A stretch of 56,367 nucleotides of DNA from a virus. How positions within the stretch are numbered: position 1 is the stretch's first letter; each line of letters starts with the position of its first letter. A program made the translations under genes and the position numbers. Positions 14,761 through 45,114 of this stretch are shown piece by piece. The notes beneath the pieces are model-generated. The model was not told the origin of the DNA. It saw nothing but the letters and a program-made list of their open reading frames with translations, and did no database searches. The DNA lies in the IMG/VR virus record IMGVR_UViG_3300020204_000079, positions 1 to 56,367 of that record. One strand, given 5' to 3'.

Positions 14761-14996
14761 TGGACGGCTTCTATGAAGGTGCGGACTTAGCAGATAAAAC
14801 ATTCTATGGTTTTCGTCTGGACCCTATCACAAGCGCTTTAAAGGTTGAGGTGATCGACCCCAATGACGGCAGTCCTGTTGAGTTGCCGTCAGAGAACATC
14901 ATTGACAGCAACGACTACAAAACTTGGGTGTGGAGCGAAAACACTATGCGCTTCATTTGGGGTAACAAAGGTCATCTACAGGTGAAATTTCTATGA
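14760..14996 (+). CDS. Small tail-region protein, 78 aa
   Basis: 78 residues from ATG 14760 (GTG 14757 is an alternative), with GAAAGGAG upstream. Acidic, with D-P-I-T-S-A-L-K-V-E-V-I-D-P-N-D-G near the centre. No family recognised. Its stop overlaps the large spike gene by 4 bases (ATGA). Confidence 0.62.
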   Translation: MDGFYEGADLADKTFYGFRLDPITSALKVEVIDPNDGSPVELPSENIIDSNDYKTWVWSENTMRFIWGNKGHLQVKFL

Positions 14997-17900
14997 CTCA
15001 ACTAATTGATCTCGGCAAGCTTCGGTTTCACTTCGCTGGTGACTGGAGCGCAACAACTCAGTATGAATTAAATGACATCGTTAAGTACGGTGGCAACGTC
15101 TACGTCTACACCTATGCACTGAAGCGCATCGGCGATCTGCCCACAGATACTAATTACTGGGCATTGATGGTTGAGGGCATCAAGTTCAAGGGTGCATTCA
15201 GCACCAGCATCGCATATAAGGTTGGTGATGGTGTTGCTCACGGCGGTAAGGTCTACATCGCTATCAAAGATGGCACTGGCTTCACCCCTCCAAACGCTAC
15301 TTATTGGTCACAGTTTGCTGACGGTATTCAATACGAGGGTGTGTACTCAAACACTGCTCAGTACCAGCGAAACGACATCGTGTCGTATGGCTCTTCTGGT
15401 TACATTGCTCTCCAGGATACAAGCGGTAACTTGCCAACTAATACAACCTTCTGGGCAAAACTTATTGAGGGTATTTCGGCAAGCGGCGCTTGGAATCCTG
15501 CAACGGCTTATGTGCCAAACGATCTTGTTGCTTACGGGGCGAATCAATACAAATCAGTTTCAAACAATACCAATCAACTACCGATTGACAGCGCTGGCAC
15601 TCTGAACAGCGCTCACTGGATTCTGTTGACTGAAAGCATTCGCAACCGAGGGGCTTGGGACACTGGTGTTGAATACTACATCAACGATGTAGTCTTTCAT
15701 GGCGGCACTTCTTATATCTGTGTTGTGCGCCATGCCTCAACAGATTTTGAAACTAACTTAGTTACGAACGTCTATTGGACAAAGTACAACTCTGGCATTC
15801 GTTGGCGCGGCGCCTGGGCTGCAACTACGGTGTACTTCAGAGACGATGTTGTTAAGGATGCTGTTGGTTCAGCCTACATTGCAACGTCAGGTCATACTGC
15901 TGGCGCGAATTTCCAGACTGATTACACCACGGGTAAGTGGCAGCAGTTTGTGGTTGGCGGTACAGATATTTATCCCCCAATACTTGCTACCGATACTGGT
16001 CAGTCTCTTACGGTCAAAGACGATGGTGCATCGTTTGACTGGATTGGCGCGACTCAATCAATAAATGTTTTTTATGTAGCTCCACATGGGGTTGACCAAG
16101 TACATTCTGGCAAGAATCTTTCTGCTCCGTTTGCCTCGATTAAATACGCTTGTAGTCAAGCTCCTGCTGGATCAACTATTTTTGTCAAGACCGGCACATA
16201 CCTTGAGCAGCTTCCGATTGTTGTCCCTGTCAATGTAGCTATTGTCGGCGATAACCAGCGCACCGTAATCGTGCAACCGGCAACCGGCTTGAGCGATGAT
16301 GGTGTCACGCCGAACAATGAGTCAACGATGTTCAGAATGAGCAATGGCTCTATCCTGAACAAGATGACGTTCGTCGGCATGACTGGTTGGGTTGCCGGTA
16401 CAACTACGGAAGACATCACAACCTCGACGATCAAGGGCGTGGTTGTTGGGTTTAACCCCGCCAGCCCCGTAACAACAAAGTCGCCATATGTGCTGGAGTG
16501 TTCTGCAATCTGCACAGGCGCTATTGGTGCGCTAGTTGATGGCACGATTCACAGTACTGGCGCAAAGTCGATGATCTTCCACGGCTATACCGTGATCAGC
16601 GACAACGGTGTCGGCTACTGGGTCAAGGACGGCGGCAAGGCTGAAATTGTTTCTTGCTTTACTTACTACTGTTACTTTGGCTACGCCTCAACTGGCGGCG
16701 GTCACATCCGCGCACTCAATGGCAACAACAGCTACGGAACATGGGGAGCCATTTCTCGCGGTTTCGATGTAACAGAGTCGCCGGTCACAGGCACATTGGT
16801 TGGTCGGGTGCTGCCGTTTACCTATACTGGAGGAACGATCAATGTAGGCGACACGGTGACTTCAGACGGTGGCGCTACTGCCATCGTCACTAATGTCCAG
16901 TACTCCGGAGACAAGGTATACGTTAAGGACATTACCGGCACCTTCGTAACCAACCAGACGCTGACATTTAGCGGTGGAGGCACTGGCACGGTAAAGTCCT
17001 CTGTTGAGGATCAAAAAGGTTTTGTGCTGGTTGCGACCGGGTTCAGCGCCTTACCCAAACCCGGCGCAAGCATCTCGCTTGCTGACGACACCTATTCGTA
17101 TGTGGTGCAAAGTACGACCGGCACATGGACAAGTTCAGCGAGCGAAATTACGCTGCTGCTGGCGCAGGAAAAGCCTACAGGCTCAGCTGCCGGAACAGCG
17201 GTGGTCATCAGGTATAAGTATTCTCAGATTCGTCTTACTGGTCACGACTTCTTGTCTATTGGAACTGGCGGCTTTACAACCACCAACTACCCCGGAACGC
17301 CAACCCAGCCTGCTGCTCAAGGCAATGAGACGGACGAAGCATTCCCAGGTCGAGTTTATTATGTATCGACCGATCAGGATGGCAACTTTAGGGTTGGCGA
17401 ATACTTCCGAATTGATCAAGCAACCGGCAAGGCGACCCTGAACGCAAGTGCGTTTGACCTGTCAGGCTTGTCGTCTTTGCGCCTAGGCTCGATTGGTGCG
17501 CAGCTTGGCGAGACCATCAACGAGTTCTCCTCTGATGCAACTCTGTCTGGCAACAGCAATACTGCTGTTCCAACAGAGTACGCTGTTAAAACTTATGTTG
17601 ATAACAAATCAGGCTCTGGCAGTGGTGGCTTACTGTCTACTGATTCAACATTGCAAACTGGGGGTAGCGTTAAAGCACCAACGGTTACAGCTGCAAAAAC
17701 TTACATTGATGACGCAATCGCTAGTTCTGAAAAGAACTGGTCAATCAAAACCGCAGCCTACACAGTGGTTTCTGGAGACCGCCTTGCGCTCGACACAACA
17801 TCTGCTGCATTTAACGTAACTCTTCCGGCTAACCCGGGTGCCGGAGATTACGTTGAGTTCTTGGATGCTGCTGGCAAATTTGATGTCAACAAACCAACCA

Positions 17901-18016
17901 TTCTTAGAAATGGAAACTTAATTTTTGGTCAGGCTGATGACATGACTGTTGACATTAAAAATGCCGCATTTCGTCTTGTTTTTCTTAACACCACATTTGG
18001 TTGGAGGATCGTGTAA
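14993..18016 (+). CDS. Tail fibre/spike with six carbohydrate-binding-like repeats and a beta-helix
   Basis: 1007 residues. Residues ~12-325 hold six tandem ~50-residue modules of the W-x(5-6)-Y-x-x-x-D-x-V-x-Y-G-x-x-x-Y ... W type, resembling ChiC/CBM5-12 carbohydrate-binding domains. Residues ~355-560 begin Y-V-A-P-H-G and look like the pectate-lyase right-handed beta-helix start seen in phage spikes. The C terminus has repeated A-V-K-T-Y-V-D / A-A-K-T-Y-I-D elements common in trimeric fibres. Likely the main glycan-binding receptor protein; no catalytic residues can be named. Confidence 0.82.
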   Translation: MTQLIDLGKLRFHFAGDWSATTQYELNDIVKYGGNVYVYTYALKRIGDLPTDTNYWALMVEGIKFKGAFSTSIAYKVGDGVAHGGKVYIAIKDGTGFTPPNATYWSQFADGIQYEGVYSNTAQYQRNDIVSYGSSGYIALQDTSGNLPTNTTFWAKLIEGISASGAWNPATAYVPNDLVAYGANQYKSVSNNTNQLPIDSAGTLNSAHWILLTESIRNRGAWDTGVEYYINDVVFHGGTSYICVVRHASTDFETNLVTNVYWTKYNSGIRWRGAWAATTVYFRDDVVKDAVGSAYIATSGHTAGANFQTDYTTGKWQQFVVGGTDIYPPILATDTGQSLTVKDDGASFDWIGATQSINVFYVAPHGVDQVHSGKNLSAPFASIKYACSQAPAGSTIFVKTGTYLEQLPIVVPVNVAIVGDNQRTVIVQPATGLSDDGVTPNNESTMFRMSNGSILNKMTFVGMTGWVAGTTTEDITTSTIKGVVVGFNPASPVTTKSPYVLECSAICTGAIGALVDGTIHSTGAKSMIFHGYTVISDNGVGYWVKDGGKAEIVSCFTYYCYFGYASTGGGHIRALNGNNSYGTWGAISRGFDVTESPVTGTLVGRVLPFTYTGGTINVGDTVTSDGGATAIVTNVQYSGDKVYVKDITGTFVTNQTLTFSGGGTGTVKSSVEDQKGFVLVATGFSALPKPGASISLADDTYSYVVQSTTGTWTSSASEITLLLAQEKPTGSAAGTAVVIRYKYSQIRLTGHDFLSIGTGGFTTTNYPGTPTQPAAQGNETDEAFPGRVYYVSTDQDGNFRVGEYFRIDQATGKATLNASAFDLSGLSSLRLGSIGAQLGETINEFSSDATLSGNSNTAVPTEYAVKTYVDNKSGSGSGGLLSTDSTLQTGGSVKAPTVTAAKTYIDDAIASSEKNWSIKTAAYTVVSGDRLALDTTSAAFNVTLPANPGAGDYVEFLDAAGKFDVNKPTILRNGNLIFGQADDMTVDIKNAAFRLVFLNTTFGWRIV

Positions 18017-19278
18017 TGGCTTTCTTGCTCTCATCTCAACTTGGCGGCAGCACTGCTTCAGCTGACAAACGTATTTACAAAAACTATCAGGAGTATATTA
18101 CCCCCGGGTCTTATACCTTCACTGTACCGGCTGGCGTTTCGTCGGTTCGAGCAATAGTAATCGGCGCAGGCGGTAGCGGTGCCAACGGTGAATATAACAA
18201 TGGCGGGGGTGGCGGTGGGGGCTTCGCTATGGGCGTTTATGCCGTGACCCCTGGTCAAAGTATTACCGTTACCGTCGGAACGGGGGGACACAATAATACC
18301 TCCGGTACTGGATATAACAGCAGCGGTGGAACCGCGGGGACGGCTGGCGGTAGCTCCTCTTTCGGTGCTTTTTGCTCTGCCACCGGCGGCTCGGGCGGAC
18401 AAAATAACAGCGGTGGCACTCGCGTCAGCGGCGGCTCCGGCTCCGGCGGCACCATTATTAACAGTACCGGCGGTCAAGGCGGCGGTGGGCGCGGTTACGG
18501 CGGCTGTAACTGGTGCAGTCAAAGCGAGGGGTACGGCGGTGGTGGCGGTGGCGCCCCCGGAAACTTCAACGTCACTACTGGGTTCAGAGGCGGGGATGGC
18601 GGGCAGAAATCTTATGGCTGGTCTGGGTGCGGCGGAGGCGGCGGAGGCATTGGAGGCAATGGAGGGGATGGCGGCACCTGGCCTGACAGTAGCAGCAACA
18701 TACAGGGATTTGGCGCTGGCGGTGGCGGATATGGCGGTGCCGGACAAAACGGGCAATCGTCAACCACAGACCGCAACAACTTCGGCGGCGGCGGATTAAG
18801 TTCACTCAATGTACGCGCATTGGGCGCAAACAACAGCGATGCGTCTGGACCGGGTCAAGCTGCGGCTGCTATTGCTGACTTTGGCGGCGTTGCCGCTGCT
18901 GCTTATGTAGCGCTCCCTGCCGGTAGCGGTTCTAGCTTCACCGTTAGTGAACAGTCATTTGCAACCCCCAGACTGTTGAACGCTAATGAAGGCGGTGGCG
19001 GCGGCGGCGGTTCTTACAGCGGCACCCAGTCCTCTGGAACAGGTGGTGCTGGCGGTGCTGGCGGCGGTGGCGGCGGCGGTGCCTCCTATTCCACCAACAG
19101 CGGGTTTGGCGGTGCTGGCGGCTTTATGGGCGGTGGTGGCGGCGGCTACGGCTCCTCGGGGCGCGGCGCTCAAGGAGGCGCAGGCGGCGGTGGTGGCGGC
19201 AATGGCGGGGCTTACGCCTGGTACTACGCCGGTGGTGGTGGTGGCGGCAACGGCTATGTTGCAATCGAGTGGGCTTAA
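18016..19278 (+). CDS. Glycine-rich tail/adhesin protein
   Basis: 420 residues from ATG 18016, which overlaps the previous stop. After an N-terminal beta segment (Y-T-F-T-V-P-A-G-V, typical of the phage Gly-rich receptor-binding domain), the rest is dominated by Gly, Ser, Ala and Asn in runs such as G-G-G-G-G-G. Such domains form polyglycine-helix sandwiches in tail tip adhesins. The GC-rich repeats make long antisense frames here meaningless. Confidence 0.82.
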   Translation: MAFLLSSQLGGSTASADKRIYKNYQEYITPGSYTFTVPAGVSSVRAIVIGAGGSGANGEYNNGGGGGGGFAMGVYAVTPGQSITVTVGTGGHNNTSGTGYNSSGGTAGTAGGSSSFGAFCSATGGSGGQNNSGGTRVSGGSGSGGTIINSTGGQGGGGRGYGGCNWCSQSEGYGGGGGGAPGNFNVTTGFRGGDGGQKSYGWSGCGGGGGGIGGNGGDGGTWPDSSSNIQGFGAGGGGYGGAGQNGQSSTTDRNNFGGGGLSSLNVRALGANNSDASGPGQAAAAIADFGGVAAAAYVALPAGSGSSFTVSEQSFATPRLLNANEGGGGGGGSYSGTQSSGTGGAGGAGGGGGGGASYSTNSGFGGAGGFMGGGGGGYGSSGRGAQGGAGGGGGGNGGAYAWYYAGGGGGGNGYVAIEWA

Positions 19279-19291
19279 TAAGGAGTAAGAA

Positions 19292-19588
19292 ATGAAAAAT
19301 TGGGCAAGAATTGAAAACGAAATTGTTTGTGAAACAACAAACATCGATCCTGTCGGTCGCTTCCACCCTTCTCTTGTTTGGACTAAGTGTCCCGCAGAAG
19401 TTCAGGGTGGCTGGACTCATAACAACGGCACTTTTACCGCACCGGCTCGGCATCAAACTACAGCGCAAGATTTAGCTCCGGGTCGAAATCTTGAGGGCTT
19501 GACTGCCGCCGAGATCGCGGCGTTCCAGGAACTGGCGGACATTCTTAACTCCAACGCTGACAGTTTGCGCGTAGCAATCGAGGCTTAA
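19292..19588 (+). CDS. Small tail-associated protein, 98 aa
   Basis: 98 residues behind AAGGAGTAAGA. Begins K-N-W-A-R-I-E-N-E-I-V and contains D-P-V-G-R-F-H-P-S-L-V-W, a motif I have seen in short genes beside phage tail fibres; possibly a fibre assembly or capping protein. Followed immediately by the Cys-rich gene and the bilin cassette. Confidence 0.65.
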   Translation: MKNWARIENEIVCETTNIDPVGRFHPSLVWTKCPAEVQGGWTHNNGTFTAPARHQTTAQDLAPGRNLEGLTAAEIAAFQELADILNSNADSLRVAIEA

Positions 19589-19589
19589 T

Positions 19590-19775
19590 ATGAATCAAAA
19601 AACAAATACCCCAATCCTTGCACCGAAAGACGTGCGATCTGCAAGAAAGTCTGTTTGCGACTCTTGCGAGTTCAAGCACCAGACTGTCCCGGTTTGCACT
19701 CAATGCAAATGCGTAATCATTGCAAAGGTTATGCTTGCATCTGCCGAGTGTCCAAAGGATAAGTGGACCGCATGA
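19590..19775 (+). CDS. Small Cys-rich (zinc-ribbon-like) protein
   Basis: 61 residues with Cys at 23, 26, 36, 39, 41 and 54, spaced as C-x2-C ... C-x2-C-x-C ... C-P-K-D-K-W. Related small proteins with a C-P-x-x-K-W ending are common in environmental phages. Zinc binding is most likely. Because it directly precedes and overlaps (ATGA) the heme oxygenase gene, an iron-binding or electron-transfer role cannot be excluded, but nothing in the sequence requires it. Confidence 0.75.
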   Translation: MNQKTNTPILAPKDVRSARKSVCDSCEFKHQTVPVCTQCKCVIIAKVMLASAECPKDKWTA

Positions 19776-20320
19776 GTTTGCGTGATGCCATTAAAGAGCA
19801 GCATGAGGAGGCTGAGCGCCATCCTCTGACGACTGTTATGATGGCTGGGTCTTTGACGCCGCAAGCTTATGCAGAACTTTTGGCAAACCAATTGATTGTT
19901 TATCAAGCAATTGAAAGCAGAGCTTCGTATTTTGGAATTTCTCAATCCCTGCCTGGGGTCGAGCGATCCGGCTTGATAATGGAAGACCTTATTGAGCTTT
20001 CAGATATGTGTGGCGGTCTTGAATTCTTTGCGTCCAAAGCAACCGCTACTCAACGAGAAAGAATCAATGATCTTGACGTTGATGGCGTAATTGCCAACAT
20101 GTATGTTCACCATATGGCTGACATGTACGGCGGTCAGATTCTGAAAAGCAAGTTGCCCGGGAAGTGTCGGCGTTATGACTTCGACGACAGAAGCGCTCTT
20201 GTTTCTGGTATTAGAGCAATGCTGAAAGATGAGATGGCTTCAGAGGCTAATCTTGCGTTTGAGTTCACCCTTCAGCTTTTTGACGATGTCGCAGACAAGC
20301 ACGGTCTTCTCGCAGCTTGA
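19772..20320 (+). CDS. ho: Heme oxygenase
   Basis: 182 residues from ATG 19772 (4-base overlap with the previous stop, AAGGAT upstream; GTG 19763 is a weaker alternative). Heme oxygenase opens heme to biliverdin, releasing iron and CO with electrons from ferredoxin. Visible family features: proximal-helix His11 in H-E-E-A-E (equivalent to His25 of HO-1), Y-A-E-L-L and Y-Q-A-I-E, and the distal-helix motif A-D-M-Y-G-G-Q (residues 116-122), where Asp117, Gly120 and Gly121 match the Asp140/Gly143/Gly144 water-network and hinge residues. It is shorter than plant or cyanobacterial HO (~240) but includes the core. The next gene, a bilin reductase, overlaps it by 35 bases. Confidence 0.9.
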   Translation: MSLRDAIKEQHEEAERHPLTTVMMAGSLTPQAYAELLANQLIVYQAIESRASYFGISQSLPGVERSGLIMEDLIELSDMCGGLEFFASKATATQRERINDLDVDGVIANMYVHHMADMYGGQILKSKLPGKCRRYDFDDRSALVSGIRAMLKDEMASEANLAFEFTLQLFDDVADKHGLLAA

Positions 20321-20954
20321 AATATTTAAAGATGAGCTTGTAAAAGTTCTTGATACTTACCCGCCTGTAGACGAAGGTCACGATTTCCCGTGGGAAAACC
20401 ACGTTTGGACTTCGCCCACATTTAGGCGCGCACATCTTGACGTTGTTGACGCAAGACACACAAAGCGCCTATACATGTTGCACTTGACTGTTTTTCCGAA
20501 CACGTCTAGCGGTGCGCCCATATTTGGTTTTGACCTAATCGCTGGTCCCAACAAAGTTACTGGCGCTTTCCACGACTTCAGCCCAATCGACCGAAGCCAC
20601 CCTATGGTTGCTTGGTTCGCTTGTCGTGTTTCTGAAATGGCTTGGAGTAAAAGGCGGCAGCTTCCCCCGTGGGCTGAAGAAATTTTTAGCGCCAGTATGG
20701 TAGCTGCTGGAAACATCACTGATGAGTCAGAACTAAGGGCAGTATTAAATCTTGCCTACGATAACCTCCGCTACTATATTAACAATGTAGATGTTGGCAG
20801 CGGCATGTTTATCAAGAAGCAAAATAAATATTGTCAAAATCAAAAGATGAATCCACATACTCCAAAAGTAATGGCTTCGCTCGGCTTTGAAGAGGATTTG
20901 ATCTATGAGTTTATTCAAAAGTGTCTTTTCCCAGAGCTTCCAGAGTCTGGTTGA
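20286..20954 (+). CDS. Ferredoxin-dependent bilin reductase (PcyA/PcyX-like)
   Basis: 222 residues from ATG 20286 inside the heme oxygenase gene (an upstream ATG at 20229 is less likely). The family reduces biliverdin to phycobilins using ferredoxin. Compared from memory with Synechocystis PcyA: P-x-F-R-R-A-H-L-D matches P-Q-F-R-K-M-H-L-E, L-H-L-T-V-F-P matches L-H-C-V-M-F-P, P-I-F-G-F-D-L-I-A-G matches P-L-F-G-C-D-I-V-A-G, L-P-P-W-A-E-E-I-F-S matches L-P-P-W-G-E-I-F-S, and Y-C-Q-N-Q-K with a C-terminal L-F. His66 and Asp83 correspond to PcyA His88 and Asp105. Glu76 is replaced by Asp52 and Asp220 by Pro190. No ferredoxin gene is present, so host ferredoxin is needed. Product (phycoerythrobilin or phycocyanobilin) unknown. 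Confidence 0.92.
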   Translation: MSQTSTVFSQLEIFKDELVKVLDTYPPVDEGHDFPWENHVWTSPTFRRAHLDVVDARHTKRLYMLHLTVFPNTSSGAPIFGFDLIAGPNKVTGAFHDFSPIDRSHPMVAWFACRVSEMAWSKRRQLPPWAEEIFSASMVAAGNITDESELRAVLNLAYDNLRYYINNVDVGSGMFIKKQNKYCQNQKMNPHTPKVMASLGFEEDLIYEFIQKCLFPELPESG

Positions 20955-21311: not shown

Positions 21312-23939
21312 ATGGCAATCTTCACCATCAAAGGCTTCTCCGGAATGAAGCCAATACTGGACCCAAGATTGCTTCAGCCAGGTGAAGCGCAGCTTTCAAA
21401 GAACGTGCGCATCCAGTCAGGGTCAATCGTTCCTTACAAACAAAACGGCATAACTGCTTTTTCAATCAACCGCAATCCGTTATCTAGCGTCCGCACTATT
21501 TACCCAGTACTTCCTGCCGGAAGCGCGTCTAGTGCCAATACCAAATGGTTGTCCTGGACTACTGATGTGTATGTAATCGAGTCTCCGGTAATGAGCGACC
21601 AGTGGAATCGGTTGTACTGGAGCGGTGAGAACGAGCCGAGGTACGGACCCAAAGAGTTCATCACTTCTGGCGCAGCGCCATATCCGTCGCAATACTACGA
21701 GCTTGGCATTCCGAAGCCAGCTGGTAAACCTGTTGCTACTGGCGCTCCAATTACTGAAGTCACAAGCAACACCAGGGAATACGCGGTCACTTATTACACT
21801 GGCTCACAAGAATCAAGCCTTGGCACCACAGCAAGCACGTCGTGCATCAAGAATCATTTTGACTATGGTCTTTATGACCTTACTCTGTCGGTGAACAATG
21901 CTGTCGCAACAGCTGTCTTTGTTAACTCGCACGACTTCAGCGTTGACGACTTCGTCAAACTAACAAATGTGGCGACCGCCTTTAAGGTCACAGAGGTTGT
22001 TAACTCAAAAACGATTCTCTTCAATGTTGGGGGGACTGTTGTTCCTGGTGGGGTTACCACTGCTTCCCGTCGTGTTATGGCGAAGGTGGCGCTTACTGCG
22101 TTGCCTAACACTGGCAACTTCCAGCAGTCTGTTACCCAAAAACGAATTTATAGGAAGAAAGACGGAACCTGGACGCTGCTCGCCACAGTTCCGCTCGCAC
22201 AGCAAACATACGAAGACTTACTGCAAGATTCTGAATTTAATGGCTCGGCGATCAGTAACGCAGTGTTGTACACGCCAGCCAAGCCCACGACTCCTCCAAC
22301 CGCGGGGTATGGCATCGGTGACACATCTCTGGCAGATAACGCTGCATCTGGATCACCAGTGGCTACATCTATCAGGGTTTATGCTTATAGCTGGGTACAC
22401 GATGCTGGCTTTGAAAGCCCTCTTTCCGATTCCAGCGGCATGGTTCAAGTTGTCGATGCCCTGACCCGAGTCAAGGTGACGATGTCTGACAGCATCCCAG
22501 ATGGCTGCTCGAAGAAACGTATCTATCGACAGGATGTTGCTCAGTCTGGCAGCGGACTGCTCACCATACCCAGCGCAAACTACAAGCTGGTAAGCGAAGT
22601 ACCAGCCTCACAAATTTCTTACGAAGACACTTTGCCACAGTCTGGGCTGAGCAGCCGTGCTGCGCCGACGAATCCATCCGGGATCACACCCCCAGAAGAA
22701 TTTTTTGGTGCTGTTGGAACAGCGCAGCCTGTTCGGAATTCTGAGACAAGAGTTTATGTATACACATACGTCTCTGAGTATGGTGAAGAGGGTCCGCCCA
22801 GTGATCCGTCTGAAGCAATTGATATTGATCCAGACTTTCCCGTCACCATTACTGGTTTTTCTGGGGCGCCAACTGGCAATTACAACGTCGCTAAGATTTA
22901 TATCTACCGCACGTCAACCGCAGCCGCGGGCGCAACCAACTATCAGTTGGTCAATACTGTAGAGAACGGCACCCCCGTTGGGCAGTCGACTTATACCGAC
23001 AAGGTTCTTCAGTCAGCCCTTGGCGAGGTAATCCCATCCATTGGGTGGGTAGCTCCGCCATCTGACCTACAAGGGCTAAGCCTGATGGCGAACGGCATTG
23101 CGGTTGGCTGGAGCGATAACAGAACGCTTTGCTTTTCTGAGCCTTACCAGCCGCATGCCTTCCCGACCAAGTATCAAATTACGGTTGACTTTGATGTAGT
23201 CGGCATCGCCGTCATGGGTCAGTCAGCGGTCATATTGACCCAAGGCTTTCCATACATTGTTAGCGGTGTTGATCCGGCGTCTATGACGCTTACAAAGCTG
23301 GCGCTTGAACAAGCGTGTGTATCGCGTCGGTCAATTGTCGAGATGGGTCCGGGCATTATGTATGCGTCTCCGGACGGTCTGGTAATGGTTTCTCAAAGTG
23401 GGGCAGATGTTGTCACTAAGAAAATCCTCAGCCAAGCCCAGTGGCAAGCTTATAGCCCATCAAGTATTCACGCTTACTGGTTTGAGAACCGATACCACGG
23501 TTTTTATTTGAGCGGCGATTCTTACAAGATGTTTGTCTTTGATCCGTCCAGCGAAACCGCAACATGGACAGAAACAGACTTGTCTGGTTTTGCTGCCCAC
23601 AAGATTGTTCAGGAAGACAAGCTGTACGTTCTTGACAGCATTGGGTTAAAAACACTGTTTGGCGGTACTGGTAACTTAACCTACGCTTGGAAGAGCAAGA
23701 TTGCTGAGCTACCTTCTCCTGGCACATTTTCTTTTGGTCAGGTGCAAGCAGATGCATACCCTGTCAACGTAAAGATCACCGCTGACGGCAGCGAGTATAG
23801 CTATGTAGCTACAAGCATTTCGCCGTTCCGCTTGCAGTCTGGGTTTATGGCGCGAGAGTGGGTTATTGAAGTTTCTGGTACATCTCAAATTAACACTATA
23901 GCTATTGCCCAAAGCGCATGGGAGCTTAAATCAGCATGA
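21312..23939 (+). CDS. Large tail protein with repeated beta domains
   Basis: 875 residues from ATG 21312 (the frame extends upstream to 21261 but overlaps the previous gene). Opening F-S-G-M-K-P-I-L-D-P-R-L-L is shared by conserved tail proteins in environmental podophages. Three or four Ig/FN3-like modules with Y-V-Y-T-Y-V-S-E-Y-G-E-E-G-P-P-S repeats (about residues 150-580) lead into a propeller-like C-terminal third. Probably a structural hub or nozzle protein of the short tail. Confidence 0.75.
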   Translation: MAIFTIKGFSGMKPILDPRLLQPGEAQLSKNVRIQSGSIVPYKQNGITAFSINRNPLSSVRTIYPVLPAGSASSANTKWLSWTTDVYVIESPVMSDQWNRLYWSGENEPRYGPKEFITSGAAPYPSQYYELGIPKPAGKPVATGAPITEVTSNTREYAVTYYTGSQESSLGTTASTSCIKNHFDYGLYDLTLSVNNAVATAVFVNSHDFSVDDFVKLTNVATAFKVTEVVNSKTILFNVGGTVVPGGVTTASRRVMAKVALTALPNTGNFQQSVTQKRIYRKKDGTWTLLATVPLAQQTYEDLLQDSEFNGSAISNAVLYTPAKPTTPPTAGYGIGDTSLADNAASGSPVATSIRVYAYSWVHDAGFESPLSDSSGMVQVVDALTRVKVTMSDSIPDGCSKKRIYRQDVAQSGSGLLTIPSANYKLVSEVPASQISYEDTLPQSGLSSRAAPTNPSGITPPEEFFGAVGTAQPVRNSETRVYVYTYVSEYGEEGPPSDPSEAIDIDPDFPVTITGFSGAPTGNYNVAKIYIYRTSTAAAGATNYQLVNTVENGTPVGQSTYTDKVLQSALGEVIPSIGWVAPPSDLQGLSLMANGIAVGWSDNRTLCFSEPYQPHAFPTKYQITVDFDVVGIAVMGQSAVILTQGFPYIVSGVDPASMTLTKLALEQACVSRRSIVEMGPGIMYASPDGLVMVSQSGADVVTKKILSQAQWQAYSPSSIHAYWFENRYHGFYLSGDSYKMFVFDPSSETATWTETDLSGFAAHKIVQEDKLYVLDSIGLKTLFGGTGNLTYAWKSKIAELPSPGTFSFGQVQADAYPVNVKITADGSEYSYVATSISPFRLQSGFMAREWVIEVSGTSQINTIAIAQSAWELKSA

Positions 23940-25690
23940 CTACCAAGCTTCCTTCAATCCCTGACTTTGATGGTAGCAATATCAAAGAAGTTTTAAACGC
24001 GCTCAAAGAAACAAGCGAAATTCGAGTCGGTCATCGAGGAGACAAGAAAGATGCTGGCGTTACGTTCCGAGATTTAGAGGCGCTCAAGCTGGTTCAGCCC
24101 GAGGAGGATGCTGTAACAACAGAGGGCGGCTCCGTATCTAGGACATCCGCATCGACGCTTGGCGGTAGGTATGCTGTTCCAGCCATAAGAGTTCCAACGT
24201 ATAACCCAGGAACCGATTTTACGCAGCCGCCGCCAGCAACTCAGCTTTTTGGAACAGCTGTTTTTGACACTGTTCTTTTGACTTGGAATGTTGTTGGATT
24301 TCCTAACCCTAGCTTCTGGGAAATTTACAGAGCTTTTGTTGATGATGTTGCTCAAGCCCAGCGGATCGGTACAAGTACATCTCAAAACTTTACCGATAAA
24401 ACGGGCGGCGAAGCTAAAACTTATTACTACTGGGTAAAGACCGTATCTGCGGCTGGTGTCAGGTCTGCTTGGAATAGCTCAAAAGGAACAGCTGTTACGA
24501 CAGGGGTTCCTGTTGCTGTAGTTTTGAAAGCTCTGGAGAATCAAATCCTGGAGTCTTCCTTAAACAGGGTGCTTGCTGAAAGGCTCAACGATGCCGAGGC
24601 TGGCAGTGGTCTTGCTAACGCCAGGATTACAGCCGAAGCAAAAACACGGGCGCAACAAATTCTTGCTGAGGCGGTAGCCCGCGGCGCTGCGATTACTCAA
24701 GAAGCCAACACCCGCCAAACCGCTGACCAGTCGCTGTCTCAACAGATCACAACAGTAACAGCCGCTGTTAACTCAAACGCAGCAGCCATTCAGACTGAAA
24801 CAACTGCCAGGATCGCGGGTGATTCGACTGTAGCTGAGCAAGTTACTACTCTTGCATCTCAAGTGCAGAACGCCGGTTACGCGACAACCGTCGCAGTTCA
24901 GCAGAACTTCTACGCCAAGGCGAGCGGTCAGTCGCTTGAGGGTCAGTACACTGTCAAGATCGACTTAAACGGTCATGTGTCCGGTTTTGGTCTGGCATCC
25001 TCTGCTGTCAACGATACGCCCACATCAGCCTTCATTGTTAGAGCCGACAAGTTTGCAATCGTAGAGCCTGGTAGCAGCGGAAACAGCTTAAACAACAATC
25101 CGCTGTCTTACTCAATTCCGTTCTTTGTTACTGGCGGCAGCACTTTCATTAAGTCTGCCTTCATTCAAAACGCCAGTATTGACGATGCAAAGATAGGGAG
25201 CGTCAGCGCCAAGAAGATTACCGCGGGTTACGTCAACGCGACCATTGGATTCAACGGCGCACAGGTATACGGCGCTCAGCTTTATGCTGGCGGATCGGTT
25301 AGTGTCAGCTATGACGGTCAGGGCTTTGCGACTGGATTTTCCGCCAACAACCCTACGTTCAAAGTTGAGAACGGCGACGTAGAGGTGGTCGCTGCGAACT
25401 TCAGAATCAAAACGCAAGCATTCAGCAGTACAACGATTACTCCATTCGAGGTGGTTAATGGCGTTGTAAGAATTACGAATGCTGCCATAGGCGTGGGCAC
25501 CATCACTATGGCAAACATTGCTGAAGTCATTCAGTCCGACGGTTACTACAGCGGTAGTAGCAGCGGCTGGCAGATTACAAAGAGTGGCGCTGCTACTTTT
25601 AATGACGCAACTATTCGTGGTGTTCTAAAGTCTAGCGACAACAACTTTATCATTGATCTCAAAAACAAATTCATTTCCATTTCTGTATGA
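23936..25690 (+). CDS. Tail fibre/tip protein with gpJ-like C-terminal region
   Basis: 584 residues. An FN3-like domain (about residues 95-190) is followed by a helical coiled stretch (about 200-310) and then a region (about 315-450) with G-Y-A-T-T-V-A-V-Q-Q-N, G-Q-Y-T-V-K-I-D-L-N-G-H-V-S-G-F-G and F-I-V-R-A-D-K-F-A-I-V, which is the DUF1983 region of lambda gpJ-type tail tip proteins. The large N-terminal part of gpJ is absent. Overlaps its neighbours by 4 bases on both sides. Confidence 0.83.
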   Translation: MTTKLPSIPDFDGSNIKEVLNALKETSEIRVGHRGDKKDAGVTFRDLEALKLVQPEEDAVTTEGGSVSRTSASTLGGRYAVPAIRVPTYNPGTDFTQPPPATQLFGTAVFDTVLLTWNVVGFPNPSFWEIYRAFVDDVAQAQRIGTSTSQNFTDKTGGEAKTYYYWVKTVSAAGVRSAWNSSKGTAVTTGVPVAVVLKALENQILESSLNRVLAERLNDAEAGSGLANARITAEAKTRAQQILAEAVARGAAITQEANTRQTADQSLSQQITTVTAAVNSNAAAIQTETTARIAGDSTVAEQVTTLASQVQNAGYATTVAVQQNFYAKASGQSLEGQYTVKIDLNGHVSGFGLASSAVNDTPTSAFIVRADKFAIVEPGSSGNSLNNNPLSYSIPFFVTGGSTFIKSAFIQNASIDDAKIGSVSAKKITAGYVNATIGFNGAQVYGAQLYAGGSVSVSYDGQGFATGFSANNPTFKVENGDVEVVAANFRIKTQAFSSTTITPFEVVNGVVRITNAAIGVGTITMANIAEVIQSDGYYSGSSSGWQITKSGAATFNDATIRGVLKSSDNNFIIDLKNKFISISV

Positions 25691-31800: not shown

Positions 31801-34800
31801 GTGTCTTACTCATTCGTAGACAGCATCACGAATCCTGGCGGTTCTAGCGAGGCTACTGCTAGACGGGCAGAAGCTATTAGGGATCGCATTGAAGACCAAG
31901 ATCGCGCTCGCATGGGCGGATATAACTTTGTCGACAACATCTCTGAAATTCAACAGCCACAGGCATTGCTGCGCGCGTCAGCAATACCAAATGACGTTGA
32001 ACAACCCCAAGAGGTAAAGACTCGCAATCCATTTAAGCAAGTTATCCCCAGGTCGCAAGAGGTTGTCGGCAACTTGGCAGAGGGTTACACCCGAGTGGCT
32101 AAGCCGTTCGGTGTTATTGATCAGACCATCAGTAAGGCATCGCCATTCCTGGGCAGCTTAAACTTGTTGCGCCGCACTATGCAGGGGCAAGAGGGGCTGG
32201 AGCAAGAAAAGCGCGGCTTAGATGAGCTACAAGCTTGGGCGCAAACACAAAAGGACGTAACCAAAGATGTTGGTTATGCCCCAACAAAGCAGCTTGGTGA
32301 CCTCGCAACCAACCCGCTAAATGTTGTACCGTTCGTTGCTGAGCGCGTTATTACCTCACTGCCTGACATGGCGGCTGCGGTCGTTGCGCCAAAGGCATAC
32401 ATTGCGGCACGAACCAATGAACTGCTGAACGAGCGCCTAAAGAACGACAACAAAACGCTGGAACAGGCAACTTTTGCCGATGTGGCGGCTGCTGCTACTG
32501 GCGCTGTCATAGAAACTACGCTGGAGCGGTTTGCCACAAAGAGCTTGCTTAAAGGCGGCGTGGGACAGGGTTCATCAGTTGGTGGGCGCATTGGTAGAGC
32601 AACCGCGCTCCAGTCTGGGACCGAGGGTCTTGAAGAAGGCGCAGCCAATCTTGCGGCAACCCTAGGGACAGAGCGGGGTGTCGACCTCAAAGAGCTTGGC
32701 GCTCAAATGCTTGAGGGCGCTATTGTTGGCGGCGGTCTAGGCGCTACCGTACAAAGCGGTAAAGAGGCTTACGTTAAAGCTACGCCTCAAAAAGACGCCG
32801 ACCGCAGATTCGCTGCTCTTGCGAGCGCGATTGATCAGGATGTCAACCAGACCACATTTGCGCAGTCTGGAATGGATGCCCAGGCGCGAATGGCTCTTGA
32901 CCCCAGTCTGACCCAAGAGCAACGCCGAGAAGTTTCTAATGTGCGTCTTCAAGACCTGGCGGACATTGCTGCTGCGGAGCGGGAAGCAGACGCTTCAGGT
33001 ACTACAACAGCTGTTATTAACAGTCAAACAGGCAATGAACCAGATAAAAATGTTGTGGGTAGCTCACCAGGTGAGCCTATCAACAACTTATCCACGTCCC
33101 CCGCGGCAGTAAACTTATCAACTACTGGGGACGCGGCAACAGATGTGGTTGCCCAGAGCGAGCAGAAATTCCTGGACGACCTGGACTTAGCCAGCCAACA
33201 GCAAAAACAAGCTGTTGAACAGCCCGAAACCCTAGCTGTTGCACTGAACGGTATTGCTGCTGACTTGCAACTTCAACCTAACGAAACGCTGAACGTAACC
33301 GAAGTCACTACCGACAAGCGGTTGAATAAGTTTGCAGAAGCGCTGAGCCAAGCGTTCGGCGTAAACGTACATTGGGTTGATTTTGGCGAACAAGGCATGA
33401 CGACCAGCACTGGTCGCAACCTTGGCGGCTTCAACGGCTATCGCCTGGACAACACGATCCTTGTGTCGCCGAATGCCGACTTTATGGACACGACGTGGCA
33501 TGAGTTAACGCACACGCTTGAAACCAAGTACCCAGAAATCTATGCACGGCTGCGCGACATCATAGTCAGCACTGCTGACCCAGTCGTAAAGCAACGTCTT
33601 TATGACGCACTAAATACCCGTCGCATGCAGGAGGTGGGTCAGCCCATGTCCGCAGCCCAACTTGAGTCTGAGTTGGTCGCTGTGGTTGTTGGACAGCAAT
33701 CAACAGACCCAGCCTTGCTTGGACAGCTGTTTGACAGCTTCCAGGACAAGACCCTGGCTCAGCAGTTCCGCGATGTTCTGACTGAAATCTTAGACCGCTT
33801 GTCCGCGGCGCTGCGTGGTCCTCAGTACATCAAAGACCGCCAGCGTGTTAATCAAGCCAGGGACGCAATCAAGACCGCGTTTGCTGAGTACCAAAAGCGT
33901 GAGGCTGCGAGGGTTGGCGGGACAGCACAAACAGCTGTTGCTACTGGTCAGCAGACGATAGCTGTTGCGACACAGCCCGCAACGCAGACCGTAGCACAGC
34001 CCGCCGCGCCGATTACCCAGACAGCCGCTCCGCCAGTTAAGCCTGAGAAGCAGGGCAAGTTTTCGCGTGAGGAATTGCTTGGTGCGCTGGTCAATGGTGA
34101 TGCGATAAGCGTTACTGATTTGATTGCTCACCCTGACATCTTTGCTGTTTATCAGCAGACCCGCGCTGTACTGCGTCGCGCACCGCCAGTCAAAAAAGTT
34201 TTTGATGACCGTGCGAAAGTCCTTGCTGACCGAGAAGGGATGACTCTTAAAAGCGGTCCAATTAAGAGCTTTGATCGCTCCTTCTCCAAGATTTGGTTCG
34301 ACTACAGCGGCGATCACACCAAGATCGGTGACGTGGTTCGATCAACCCTGGTGGTCAATGACTTGCGTGATTTGCAGGACATGATTAAAGCGACGACCAG
34401 TTTCTTTGATGGCGTAAGCATCAAGCGAAATGGCTGGGACCCAAATGCGCCAGTTCACCCCAGCGGCTACCGCGATGTCTTCTTCAGGGGCGCATCCTTC
34501 CTGAACTTCTCTGTCGAGTTACAGATGAACTTTGCCCCGATGATGGAGGCAAAAGAGATTGCGCATGGTTTCTACAAGATAGAGGATCAACTGCGCCGCG
34601 ACATCCTGAGCCAGGACAAACCCATGTCCCCTGGCGACATCTCAGCGGCTCAAGACCAAATCAGAGAATTGCAGCTTAAACAATTCCAGCTGTATAGCGT
34701 GGCGGCTCAGCGAGTCTTCGACGGGGCGAATGCGCCACGCCAAGCAGCTTCGGTCATAGGTACGCCCTCGGATGTCCAGGTGGACAAGCCGAACGAGCGC

Positions 34801-37800
34801 GGCGCTACCTCGCCGGTGCCCGGGTTGTCGTCCCAAGCCGACAATGTGCCGTCGGGCGCGCGGGTAACTGGTACACCCATAACCTCGAAGAAGGTGGTCC
34901 CTTCCGGGAACGAAGCCGGAATTTCCATATCTTTACCTCCTGTAACAATACCTAATAGTAATATACCACAGCAAGTTGATACTGTGCAAGAGCAGACCGA
35001 CGCTCCCAAAAAGGGTGTTAGTCAGTATTCGCGCTCAACCGTGTTGCTCATGCAGATGTCTGATGCAGATGCTCGACGCGCGATTGGCATGGACGCCAAG
35101 TCTAATAAGGTGCGCGATGTTGGCGCAGCCCTGAACGCCAAGACTCTCAAAGAGGACGGCGAAATTTCTGACAAGAACACCACCGAAGAGGCAATGAAAG
35201 AGATTGCCGACATCCTGGTGGGCGAGATTTCTTATCAACTGGGCACATCCGCAGACACCGGCACGGGCTTAGGCTGGTATTCAGCCAACTACCCCAACGC
35301 AGTTAAGCGATTGGCTCGCGTCTACCCAGAGTTGGACGAAGACGCGGGCGCGCGCAACGTGTTCACCGCCATTGTTGCCATCACCTCTAACGGTGAAAAG
35401 GTCTCGACCAACATCAGCAACGCCCTGAAGATTTACGACGGCTTCCGTGATGGCGGCGCTCTTCAGCCGGTTGGCACTCGCCGTGGCTCGATGAGCGCAA
35501 CCCTTGACCGACTGCAAGCACTGATTGATCAGTTCGGCATGGACGGTTTCAGCGACCATCTGTTGGAAGAGCTTACCGTTGGTCAAATCAACGCAAGCCT
35601 GCGAGCAGCCGGGAAGAAAGCTAACTCTAGCTACACAGCAGACACGGTGATGCCACGAGCCGCACTGTACTTTGGTCCCAAGCTGGGGGCTTTCTATGCC
35701 AACCTCATGGGGTCCGAGGGCTACCTCACTATGGATTTGTGGTGGAGCCGCACATTCAACCGCATTCGTGGGACGCTGATCCCTGAACCTACCAAGTCGA
35801 GTGTTGAGTCTGTTCGACAGCTGTTGGGCTTGCCAGAGAATGTGGACGACGAGGTCGTCGCACTGAGCGCCATCCCGTACCAAGAATCGTACAAGCAGAA
35901 GAAGTACAAGGGCGGTACAGAGCTTGAGAAGAAAGCGAACACACTGGTTAAAACGACGTTCCTTGAACTCAACGAGGCGCCGTTCCGGGCGAGCGACCGT
36001 AGCTTTATGATTGGCACCACGCTGATGGCTCAAGAGAAGCTATCCGATAACGGCGTCAAGCTGACCCTTGCTGACATTCAGGCGGCACTGTGGTACTACG
36101 AGAAACGGCTTTACGCGAAACTGACCGGAAGGAAAACAGATGACATCGGATACGAAGAAGCAATCATCGCCGCAGCAGAGGGTGATCGACCCCAGCGATC
36201 CCCTGCACGATTTAATCGAGGGGGAACTGGCGGGACTGTCGGGACAACAGTCGGTCGAGATGTTGCAACAGATGTTCCCGTCAACCAGCCAGAAGCCAGA
36301 ACCGAACCAACAGAAGTAGAAACTGTTGGACAGTACAGCCGACCGCTGGTGCTTGATGCCATCAACGGCAAGGCAACCGCGCCTGACCTGTTCATCATCA
36401 ACGAGAACCCCCGTGTTCTGACAGCTGTTGGTGCGCCGGAGGAGCCGCTTGTTATTAGCAAGCGCACGGTGATGAAAGTGTCTAATCCAGAGGGCGCTGG
36501 CAAATTCACCGAAGACTTCCGCGGCTACAACTCTGCTGGCTTCCAGGTGCAGCGCGCCAAGCGCATTGCCCTGACTGTTGATGAGTTGCGTTCAGTGCCT
36601 CGAATGATCGGCAATCCTGTTGCAATCATCAAGGTGATGCCTAACGCACAGCTAAACCGCCGTGAGTCGTACAAAGTGGTTCTCGACATGGTGAAAGAAG
36701 GCAACCCTGTTATCGCCATCGTCCAGCCTGGTGTGCCGCAGCGCAGTAAAGAAACTGGCGTCACCATGCGAGCCAGCGAGATCGCCTCGATCTACCCCGT
36801 AAACCAAGAGTCGTCGCTGCGTGAGACCAACAGCGAGATTGCTGCTCAACAGCTGTTGTACTTCAACAAAGGTAAAGCTACCGTCCTGGCAAGCAAAATT
36901 GGAAGCAAGCTTTCTGCACTAACAAGCGGGGCAACTGGTCTGCGCAGCAAGAAGCCCGGTGACTTCCGAAGCCTGGAGTATGACCTCCACCCGAAGAGCA
37001 ACTTCAGCCGCAGCATGGCGGAGGATATAGCGCTTCAGGAAGAGTTCTTGATAGAGCGAGCCAAAGAGTCTGGCTTTGAAAATGTAGACGCCTGGATCGA
37101 CGCTGACTACAACGGGTTTGTTAAGTCTGCTGCTGAGTGGCGCTCGCAAAATCCTGTCAACGAAGGATTCTTCTCTCGCCGCGTCGCATTGCAAGGCAAC
37201 AAGTTCACCCTACCGGCGCGCACGGTTCGTGAGAAGTATCTTGAGAACCTGTTTCAGAACCGCATGTCCAGGGTGGAAGACATCCAACAGGCTGTTCAAC
37301 AGCAGGGTGGAACGCTCGACATCAAGGACAGCGCAGGCAATGTACTTGGCAGCACAGACATTACGGCTGCTTCTCAGCGGATGCGGGGTGCTGTTCGTGG
37401 TCGTTTAGATCGATTCAAGAAAGAGGTCGAGATTCCACTGATTGAGGACGCAGCTAAGGCTGGCGTTGACTTGGATGAAGCCGCTCAGTACCTCTACGCC
37501 ATGTATGCACCAGAGCGCAACCTGATCATTCAGACTAGGAACCCCTCACAGTTCCCAACTGACGGTGGCTCGGGTATGACTAACGCAGAAGCAGCAAAGA
37601 TTGTTGCTGACTTCCGTAAGCGCGCGGACTTCCCCGTGTTCCAAGCGATTGCTAAGCGATTCCAGGACATCACCAATATGACCCAGAGTATCTTGGTGAA
37701 TGAAGGCTTGGTTGACGCAGCGACCGTGAATCAGTGGAAGGCTGAGAATCCAAACTATGTACCTCTGCGAGGCTTTGAGAGCGTGGACGAAGAGACTGGC

Positions 37801-40053: not shown

Positions 40054-40098
40054 CTGTCACGCCGGGGGTCGCGGGTTCGAGTCCCGTCCACTCCGCCA
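40054..40098 (+). other. attP core: 3' half of tRNA-Asp(GTC)
   Basis: 45 bases run from the anticodon loop (C-T-G-T-C-A-C-G-C) through variable loop, T-arm (G-C-G-G-G-T-T-C-G-A-G) and acceptor strand to G-CCA, as in bacterial tRNA-Asp. The 5' half is absent, so it is not a tRNA gene. Placed 46 bases from the end of the integrase gene, it is what an attachment core looks like: integration would restore the host tRNA. The host tRNA-Asp should end C-C-A-C-T-C-C-G-CCA. Confidence 0.9.
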
Positions 40099-40143: not shown

Positions 40144-41169
40144 TTACTGTGGGTTAGAAGCGCCCACGTTCCCCACATTTTGCGCACAGCCACCCACAGC
40201 TGTTGGCATGCTGTTGTTGGCGTACTGTCTGGAGCCTTCAGCCGACAGGTGAGCGTACCTGTTGACCATCTCCAGGGTTTGCCAACCGCCCAGCGCCTTG
40301 AGTGTGAGCAGCGGTGTGCCGTTCATGGCGTGATAGCTGGCGAAGGTGTGACGGAGGTCGTGCCACCTGAAGTTAGAGATGCCAGCCCTGCCCAGTGCTT
40401 TCTTCCAGGCTGCTGTGTTTGTGTTCTGTACTGGGTAGCCGCAGTATGTGAACACATGTGTAGCGCTTTGGTTTCTTTCACCTTCAAGAATCTGGATCGC
40501 TCTATCCCCTAGAGGGATGCCGTGATTTCGACCCGACTTGTACTCAGTCGATTCAATCCACAGCAAACGACGCTGCATGTCAACCCGGTCCCACCGAAGT
40601 CCAGTCACATTGGACATCCGAAGACCTGTCAATACGCTGAACTCAGCCATCACCCGCAAGTGGTGCGGCAGTTCACGCATCAACCTGGACAGTTCATCCT
40701 CAGATAGAAACCGCAGACGCGCTTTGGGCGCGGGGTAGGTCTTCATCTTGACGGGCGACACATCCATCCATCCCCATTCGACCGACTTATTAAAGAGCGC
40801 CTTCACGAACTTTAGGTAGTGGTTTGCATTTGAGTCCGTAGTCTCAATACGCTTTTGCTCCACTGCCTTGCGAACATCGCCATCAGTGATCGTCGAGAAC
40901 ACTCGACCAGACCAGTGCTGATCAAGCCATCGCGCAATCGATACGTCACGGTCCAGCGACCGCTTGTCTGTGCGCTCAGCAAACCACCGCTTAGTGGCGT
41001 CGTCCCAAGTTAGAGGTTTGGCTTGACCCCTTGTGATTTCAGCCAAACGTCTGTCGTGGTACGCCTTTGCTGTTAACTGGTTACCAGACCCAGTTGATTC
41101 ACGATGTCTGGTGCCATCTGGACCGCGCACTTCAATCCAGTAAATGCTGCCGCGCTTGTAAATACTCAT
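40144..41169 (-). CDS. int: Tyrosine-recombinase integrase
   Basis: 341 residues, start ATG at 41169. A short N-terminal arm-binding-like segment, a SAM-like core-binding domain (about 53-145) and the catalytic domain with Arg184 (T-G-L-R), Lys211, His270 and Arg273 (H-D-L-R-H), Trp296 in place of the second His (G-G-W) and nucleophile Tyr305 (R-Y-A-H-L). All key residues are present, so it should be active. It catalyses integration at tRNA-Asp via the adjacent attP. No excisionase was recognised. Confidence 0.96.
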   Translation of the reverse strand: MSIYKRGSIYWIEVRGPDGTRHRESTGSGNQLTAKAYHDRRLAEITRGQAKPLTWDDATKRWFAERTDKRSLDRDVSIARWLDQHWSGRVFSTITDGDVRKAVEQKRIETTDSNANHYLKFVKALFNKSVEWGWMDVSPVKMKTYPAPKARLRFLSEDELSRLMRELPHHLRVMAEFSVLTGLRMSNVTGLRWDRVDMQRRLLWIESTEYKSGRNHGIPLGDRAIQILEGERNQSATHVFTYCGYPVQNTNTAAWKKALGRAGISNFRWHDLRHTFASYHAMNGTPLLTLKALGGWQTLEMVNRYAHLSAEGSRQYANNSMPTAVGGCAQNVGNVGASNPQ

Positions 41170-44463: not shown

Positions 44464-45114
44464 TTAGACCACCTGAGACCTTGCGTAGCAGAAGACCTTG
44501 CCCACTACCGCAGGAACAACTGAGAACAGCTGTTGCTCTGGCAGTACAACAGGCTCAAACATTCGGTCGTCCTTGCTCAGGCGGATGTTGGAGCCAATCC
44601 TCTGCACCCTGCGCACCTCGGTTCTTTCGCTGAAGCGCATGATGTAAAGACCGTCGCCCTCAATAGACTTGATGCCCAGGTCAATGTAGAGACAGTCCTC
44701 TGGAACGATGGTCGGCTGCATCCCAGCATCTTCAAACACCGAGGCTACGATGTTCTTAGTGGCTGTCACCCGGCTGAACCTTGGGTATGCTGTTGGCAGC
44801 ACCATAAAGTAGTCGTAACGCTCTGGTGCAACGTCAGGAATTTGGCTGTAGTCCACAATGGGAATGGTCAGCACACGCTTGACCCCGACGCCGCGGGGCG
44901 TGTCGAGCCAGCCCCTGCTAATACCAAGCCGCTGCTCGATGTCCCGTGCCAGCTTCTCGCCGAAGCCCCGCCTGTAGTCTTCGTTCTCTGTCAGCACCAG
45001 GTTGATAAGGTTTGGGTTCTTGCCAGTAGCACGGCAGAATGCCGCGCGGTTGCCCTTGTAATGGTCTTTGATGTAGGTAACTAGGTTAATTCGTCTCGAC
45101 TGCTGTAAGTCCAC
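44464..45114 (-). CDS. CI-like repressor with degenerate S24 domain
   Basis: 216 residues from GTG 45114, AGGGAG upstream. N-terminal helix-turn-helix (about 10-70; G-N-R-A-A-F-C-R-A-T-G, N-P-N-L-I-N). C-terminal S24-like fold (about 100-210) with E-D-A-G-M-Q-P-T-I-V-P-E-D and D-G-L-Y-I-M. Where active repressors have S-M-x-P-T, this has Gly131-Met; the Lys of V-K-R is Arg168. Both dyad residues are therefore missing, so RecA-stimulated self-cleavage is not expected. Probably maintains lysogeny by binding the CAATACC-type operators. Confidence 0.85.
   Translation of the reverse strand: MDLQQSRRINLVTYIKDHYKGNRAAFCRATGKNPNLINLVLTENEDYRRGFGEKLARDIEQRLGISRGWLDTPRGVGVKRVLTIPIVDYSQIPDVAPERYDYFMVLPTAYPRFSRVTATKNIVASVFEDAGMQPTIVPEDCLYIDLGIKSIEGDGLYIMRFSERTEVRRVQRIGSNIRLSKDDRMFEPVVLPEQQLFSVVPAVVGKVFCYARSQVV

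Follow-up and report, generated by a model that had tools for sequence, protein, structure and literature searches.

A heme oxygenase and PcyX-type bilin reductase gene pair associated with a tail-fibre family in a putative temperate podovirus

Introduction

Why would a phage that probably does not infect cyanobacteria carry a heme-to-phycobilin pathway among its tail genes? The question is raised by the virus record IMGVR_UViG_3300020204_000079, whose whole 56,367-base sequence we analysed and refer to here as the window, and in which a heme oxygenase (HO) gene overlaps a ferredoxin-dependent bilin reductase (FDBR) gene. The original prediction for this locus inferred a host not expected to need phycobilins. 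The idea that such a pathway is unprecedented outside cyanophages is too strong: a SAR11 phage, Mosig, with hemO-pcyX and methanotroph-assigned phages with hemO-pcyA/X have already been published (PMC11480375), and hemO-pcyX pairs are known from pelagic and uncultured phages, some of which have non-photosynthetic hosts (PMC11480375). The window enzymes are further members of this published hemO-pcyX kind, so that what is new is confined to the occurrence in a temperate podovirus, the probable gammaproteobacterial host and an association with a tail-fibre family. What hemO and bilin reductase genes do for phages whose bacterial hosts are non-photosynthetic has been called enigmatic (PMC11480375). 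Here we propose, with a probability of about 0.75, that the heme-to-phycoerythrobilin pathway is the cargo of an exchangeable late-region module tied to the fibre, in a temperate podovirus of a probable gammaproteobacterium.

Results

Identity of the two enzymes

The ORF at 19772..20320 (+, 182 aa), which starts with ATG at 19772, matched the Pfam profile Heme_oxygenase (PF01126) with E=3.7e-13 (50.2 bits vs a cut-off of 23). Its AlphaFold model had a pLDDT of 96.7, and all of the best Foldseek matches to the model were heme oxygenases, including HmuO and HO-1 (TM ~0.8). In an alignment with HmuO, His11 of the predicted protein corresponds to His20 and the ADMYGGQ Asp to Asp136; His11, Glu15, Asp117, Gly120 and Gly121 were invariant across 27 phage homologues. 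The model has the all-helical heme oxygenase fold, with the proximal His and the distal Asp/Gly helix in place. The agreement of profile, modelled fold and residues confirms, at the level of sequence and model, that 19772..20320 encodes a heme oxygenase, and the turning of heme into biliverdin IXalpha is its predicted activity.

The overlapping ORF at 20286..20954 (+, 222 aa), with ATG at 20286, matched Fe_bilin_red (PF05996) with E=6.6e-20 (72.2 bits vs a cut-off of 31). The nearest solved structure was that of PcyX (5owg, E=4.5e-54, compared with 1e-18 for PcyA). By a residue count in Mosig, together with the alignment to 5owg and to the PcyA of Synechocystis, Asp52 occupies the position of PcyX Asp55 (Glu76 in PcyA), and His66 and Asp83 preserve the catalytic His/Asp pair. 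At the positions of PcyA His88 and Asp105, all 87 homologues had His and Asp, respectively, and all had Asp at the Asp55 position, the last count being somewhat enriched by selection, since one search pattern included that Asp. The PcyA references had Glu at the equivalent position in 6/6 cases, and the window reductase has Asp instead of this Glu76 equivalent. A phylogenetic tree that did not include the freshwater CB_2 enzyme separated the window sequence, Mosig and PcyX 5owg from the PcyA sequences of cyanophages and Synechocystis (SH-aLRT 100).

A freshwater phage enzyme without Asp55, CB_2, makes phycocyanobilin (Wegner et al. 2024, PMC11480375). Since the window FDBR keeps the Asp at this position, phycoerythrobilin is the product expected from its sequence. 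It is very unlikely that the reductase is instead a PcyA that makes phycocyanobilin as CB_2 does: the CB_2 enzyme is also accompanied by hemO (PMC11480375), but the window has the Asp that CB_2 reportedly lacks and that PcyA references replace with Glu, and it falls with PcyX in the tree. Taken together, the HO motifs (His11, ADMYGGQ) and reductase motifs quoted in the original prediction are present, both ORFs lie inside the claimed families above the curated Pfam cut-offs, and, of the checks that it proposed, structure prediction for HO and phylogeny for FDBR support the assignment of the overlapping pair.

The late tail-gene region

The pair lies where it had been predicted, in the late tail-gene region, with fibre and tip genes upstream and internal virion and tail-tip genes downstream, all on the + strand. 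The tail fibre, a 1007-aa protein of phrog_9851 (14993..18016, PHROG E=1.4e-210), belongs to the family with which the pair associates. It is followed by a glycine-rich tip / tail-fibre assembly protein (18001..19278; Pfam Gly_rich_2 E=2e-7, phrog_863 tail fiber assembly E=1e-19), which several relatives encode in one ORF with the fibre, and by a 98-aa ORF (19292..19588) with no family match in Pfam or PHROG, described here by position only, at which relatives have a tail-assembly-chaperone-like gene. The next ORF encodes a 61-aa protein with paired CxxC motifs (19590..19775, phrog_13558 E=5e-12), and its stop overlaps the HO start as ATGA; the lineages L019 and L077 likewise have the paired-CxxC motif immediately 5' of HO. 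The HO and FDBR ORFs share 35 nt and run in the same direction as parts of this tail-gene series. Downstream, the next large structural gene belongs to the podovirus backbone and encodes an internal virion protein (21345..23939, phrog_511 E=5e-161), followed by a tail-tip / central fibre protein (23936..25690; Pfam Phage_Tail_Tip E=4e-32, phrog_496 and phrog_31). A promoter/terminator scan around the pair gave no signal above chance that would separate it from its neighbours. Because the two genes are co-directional and overlapping within the late tail region, production of HO and FDBR at a late stage of lytic growth is probable.

Elsewhere in the window, CobT-like (51720-53789) and CobS-like AAA (53801-55021) genes lie on the - strand; they are tetrapyrrole-related by family name and common in phages. 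A 2727-aa ORF (31801-39984, +) contains no cysteine and few histidines.

Conservation of the pair

HO adjoins FDBR in 87 of the 88 loci examined, mostly with overlapping genes, and the single exception ends at a contig edge. The adjacency is therefore not due to chance. A profile search found at least 536 relatives in viral contigs, and a scan of species genomes of bacteria and archaea (84,980 in all), limited by a sequence pattern, found 3, all in marine metagenome-assembled genomes. Two of the pairs are on very large contigs, a 267 kb record (L065) and a 335 kb contig (L010), one of which has a T4-type capsid gene, the other lying in a Neomarinimicrobiota MAG. Genes for 2OG-Fe(II) oxygenases were close to the pair in 33 of 87 loci. 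Photo_RC, Fer2 ferredoxin and AlaS matches were found in 0/50 pair-bearing records including the window, many of these records being fragments. The window record itself gave no match to a psbA-type Photo_RC, a 2Fe-2S ferredoxin or an AlaS gene (TIGR01821), which agrees with the claim that photosystem genes are absent.

Association with the tail-fibre family

A search with the window fibre returned 77 contigs. Among the fibre relatives (48-80% identity) with at least 5.5 kb of downstream sequence, HO was present in 33/37 and FDBR in 31/37, on the same strand, and setting aside three N-terminal-only fibre matches raised the HO count to 33/34. The sole remaining case, L162, is a natural fibre relative without the HO-FDBR pair. 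Control proteins were searched in the same way, all starting from pair-bearing contigs, just as the fibre search itself began from a cassette-bearing phage. Relatives of the T4 neck protein gp14 (49-70%) had neither HO nor FDBR (each 0/56 contigs), relatives of the window capsid protein had no FDBR (0/22 records, setting aside a same-species fragment that ends short of the pair position), and the pair was found with 0/3 relatives of the internal virion protein. After dereplication, HO accompanied 22 of 23 fibre groups vs 0 of 22 neck-protein groups (Fisher p=6e-12). The fibre core was present in one of 80 capsid-protein loci, that one from the same species, a lower bound because some contigs were too short. 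In the reverse direction, the fibre core lay upstream in 36 of the 44 pair loci with enough upstream sequence, and the other 8 had no such fibre within the sequence examined. Fibre and pair were found together both with T4 gp23 capsids and on a podovirus backbone of the window type. By computation, then, the HO-FDBR pair tracks the tail-fibre family and not the virion backbone, an association that the original prediction missed.

The 8 pair loci without the fibre, together with L162, indicate that neither partner strictly needs the other. Across 29 dereplicated loci, the distance correlation was weak for fibre and FDBR (rho 0.17, p 0.061) compared with HO and FDBR (rho 0.40, p 0.001), suggesting that the module is not simply co-inherited as a single block, though the partners stay together; distance saturation could also lower the fibre-FDBR value. 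In the four cyanophages viewed, which have 35-40% identical fibres, different genes occupied the slot. A search with the gene directly 3' of FDBR in another lineage retrieved two near-identical contigs only.

Lysogeny genes and probable host

Judged from its genes alone, the window phage is a temperate podovirus. The predicted integrase, S24 repressor and 45-nt tRNA-Asp 3' end are real: a tyrosine integrase is encoded at 40144..41169 (-, Pfam E=3e-27; best isolate matches Burkholderia phages, ~41%), a CI/S24-type repressor at 44464..45114 (-, Pfam Peptidase_S24 E=2e-6; phrog_6201 CI-like repressor E=7e-10), and the tRNA-derived putative attP core lies at 40054..40098 (+).

A 39-nt att core matched exactly in 102/369 gammaproteobacterial genomes and the 45-nt core in 0/385 alphaproteobacterial genomes, the two core lengths making this not strictly the same test. 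Among 12 cassette records of relatives, the att core had 0 matches. The window portal is nearest to those of alphaproteobacterial phages, and the alphaproteobacterial host that this similarity suggested was rejected on the 0/385 result. Because of the att core, with the integrase similarity to Burkholderia phages also counted, the host is most likely a gammaproteobacterium in the GTDB sense, which includes Burkholderiales, and the phage is probably non-cyanobacterial, as had been predicted.

Integrase matches were also found in three further pair-bearing records. A backbone relative with a 79% identical capsid protein (L331 / L122, record IMGVR_UViG_3300034272_000911) also has this tRNA-Asp core over 32 nt, which fits integration of the window-type backbone at tRNA-Asp. 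Three other contigs (L150, L312 and L313) have a capsid protein 100% identical to that of the window, L150 also the fibre, and represent the same phage species in other samples.

Discussion

Computation shows the families of the two enzymes, their PcyX-type residues, the order of the genes and the association with the fibre; from these we infer what the enzymes do and make, when they are expressed, which host is infected and why pair and fibre go together. In the proposed pathway, HO would open heme to yield biliverdin IXalpha, CO and Fe2+, and the PcyX-type reductase would convert biliverdin to phycoerythrobilin by a four-electron reduction with electrons from host ferredoxin. The pair would be the cargo of an exchangeable late-region module, the constant partner of which would be the upstream tail fibre, not the backbone. 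Selection may keep the pathway with the fibre because its products aid infection of hosts reached through the fibre, which we consider the somewhat more likely course, or because the receptor-binding apparatus itself makes use of bilin or iron.

The pair could also be ordinary auxiliary metabolic cargo, for which we judge the chances to be slightly below even. The fibre region would then be a recombination hot spot in which HO-PcyX rides along without any biochemical tie to the fibre, and the benefit would lie in the metabolism of the hosts reached by the fibre, through iron from heme, heme removal or an antioxidant bilin. The differing slot cargo in cyanophages with related fibres, the 2OG-Fe(II) oxygenases near the pair in 33/87 loci and the absence of the pair from L162 are consistent with such cargo, and iron supply has already been proposed (PMC11480375). 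However, a constancy of 33/34 despite poorly correlated distances is high for free cargo exchange, the association is with a conserved fibre core, and iron release alone needs no reductase with active-site residues conserved in 87/87 homologues.

A role in the virion, with phycoerythrobilin bound to the fibre or the glycine-rich tip, or with Fe2+ feeding 2OG oxygenases that modify the fibre, is rather unlikely. The bilin might serve as a stabiliser, a photoprotectant or a tetrapyrrole-like ligand for host receptors, and the near-constant fibre association across backbones, the overlapping co-directional genes and the iron-dependent oxygenases in the same slot of many relatives and of Mosig would fit. 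The features of the window proteins argue against it. The moderate-confidence model of the fibre core is beta-rich and contains no known bilin fold; its best PDB matches, the tail fibres of Agrobacterium phage 7-7-1, have low TM and provide only a hint. An HxH iron-binding fibre was rejected, as HxH is absent from the window tail fibre and tip proteins and occurs only in TerL and an NlpC-like protein, and no 2OG oxygenase gene was seen in the window slot. Covalent attachment of bilin was likewise rejected: C564, C569 and H539 (ORF numbering) are conserved in pair-linked fibres but missing in the pair-bearing Mosig, the single universal Cys is also present in cyanophage fibres without the pair, and no fibre Cys is kept in all pair-bearing phages yet absent elsewhere, as an attachment site would need. 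We regard as quite doubtful the more specific proposal that phycoerythrobilin is a functional part of the receptor-binding apparatus, which a fibre of this type would carry or require. If true, virions would carry a tetrapyrrole ligand, and the retention of a phycobilin pathway by phages of non-photosynthetic hosts would be explained.

Interference with host light sensing, in which phycoerythrobilin replaces biliverdin in a host bacteriophytochrome and locks or blinds it, is very unlikely: a functional phytochrome has been assembled with the product of a phage PcyA (PMC11480375) and the host is probably a proteobacterium, but no photoreceptor gene was noticed among the window ORFs scanned, and the fibre association is left unexplained. 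The same is true of all the uses in the original prediction, since phytochrome interference, antioxidant protection, heme removal and iron supply do not in themselves explain the fibre association.

In the open-access literature, we found no paper treating heme oxygenase, bilin reductase, tail fiber and phage together. The fibre association, absent from capsid, neck and internal-virion relatives, makes the purpose of the pair testable, as a choice between use in the virion and a fibre that marks suitable hosts. For such tests, a temperate podovirus is also smaller than the large T4-like phages.

Among known systems, the cyanophage ho1, pebS and pcyA genes (P-SSM2, P-SSM4 and others) are likewise phage-borne heme-to-phycobilin enzymes, but their FDBRs are only 25-30% identical to that of the window, PcyA references fall on the opposite side of the tree, the hosts are photosynthetic, and the enzymes are not beside a related fibre in the four cyanophages viewed. 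The hemO-pcyA/X-valaS cassettes (Wegner et al. 2024, PMC11480375) resemble the window pair as hemO plus FDBR in marine and freshwater phages whose hosts are non-cyanobacterial; in contrast, AlaS is absent from the window, which therefore has no such three-gene cassette, and from 49 other cassette records, and the window reductase has the Asp that CB_2 lacks. The Pelagibacter phage Mosig EXVC030M and uncultured marine viruses share with the window hemO-pcyX in the same order, overlapping genes and PcyX residues; in Mosig, the FDBR is 44.5% identical to that of the window and a related tail fibre lies upstream. Mosig is a larger T4-like SAR11 phage in which a ferrochelatase and four 2OG oxygenases are encoded close to the pair, whereas the window phage is a podovirus with an integrase, a repressor and a gammaproteobacterial-type att core.
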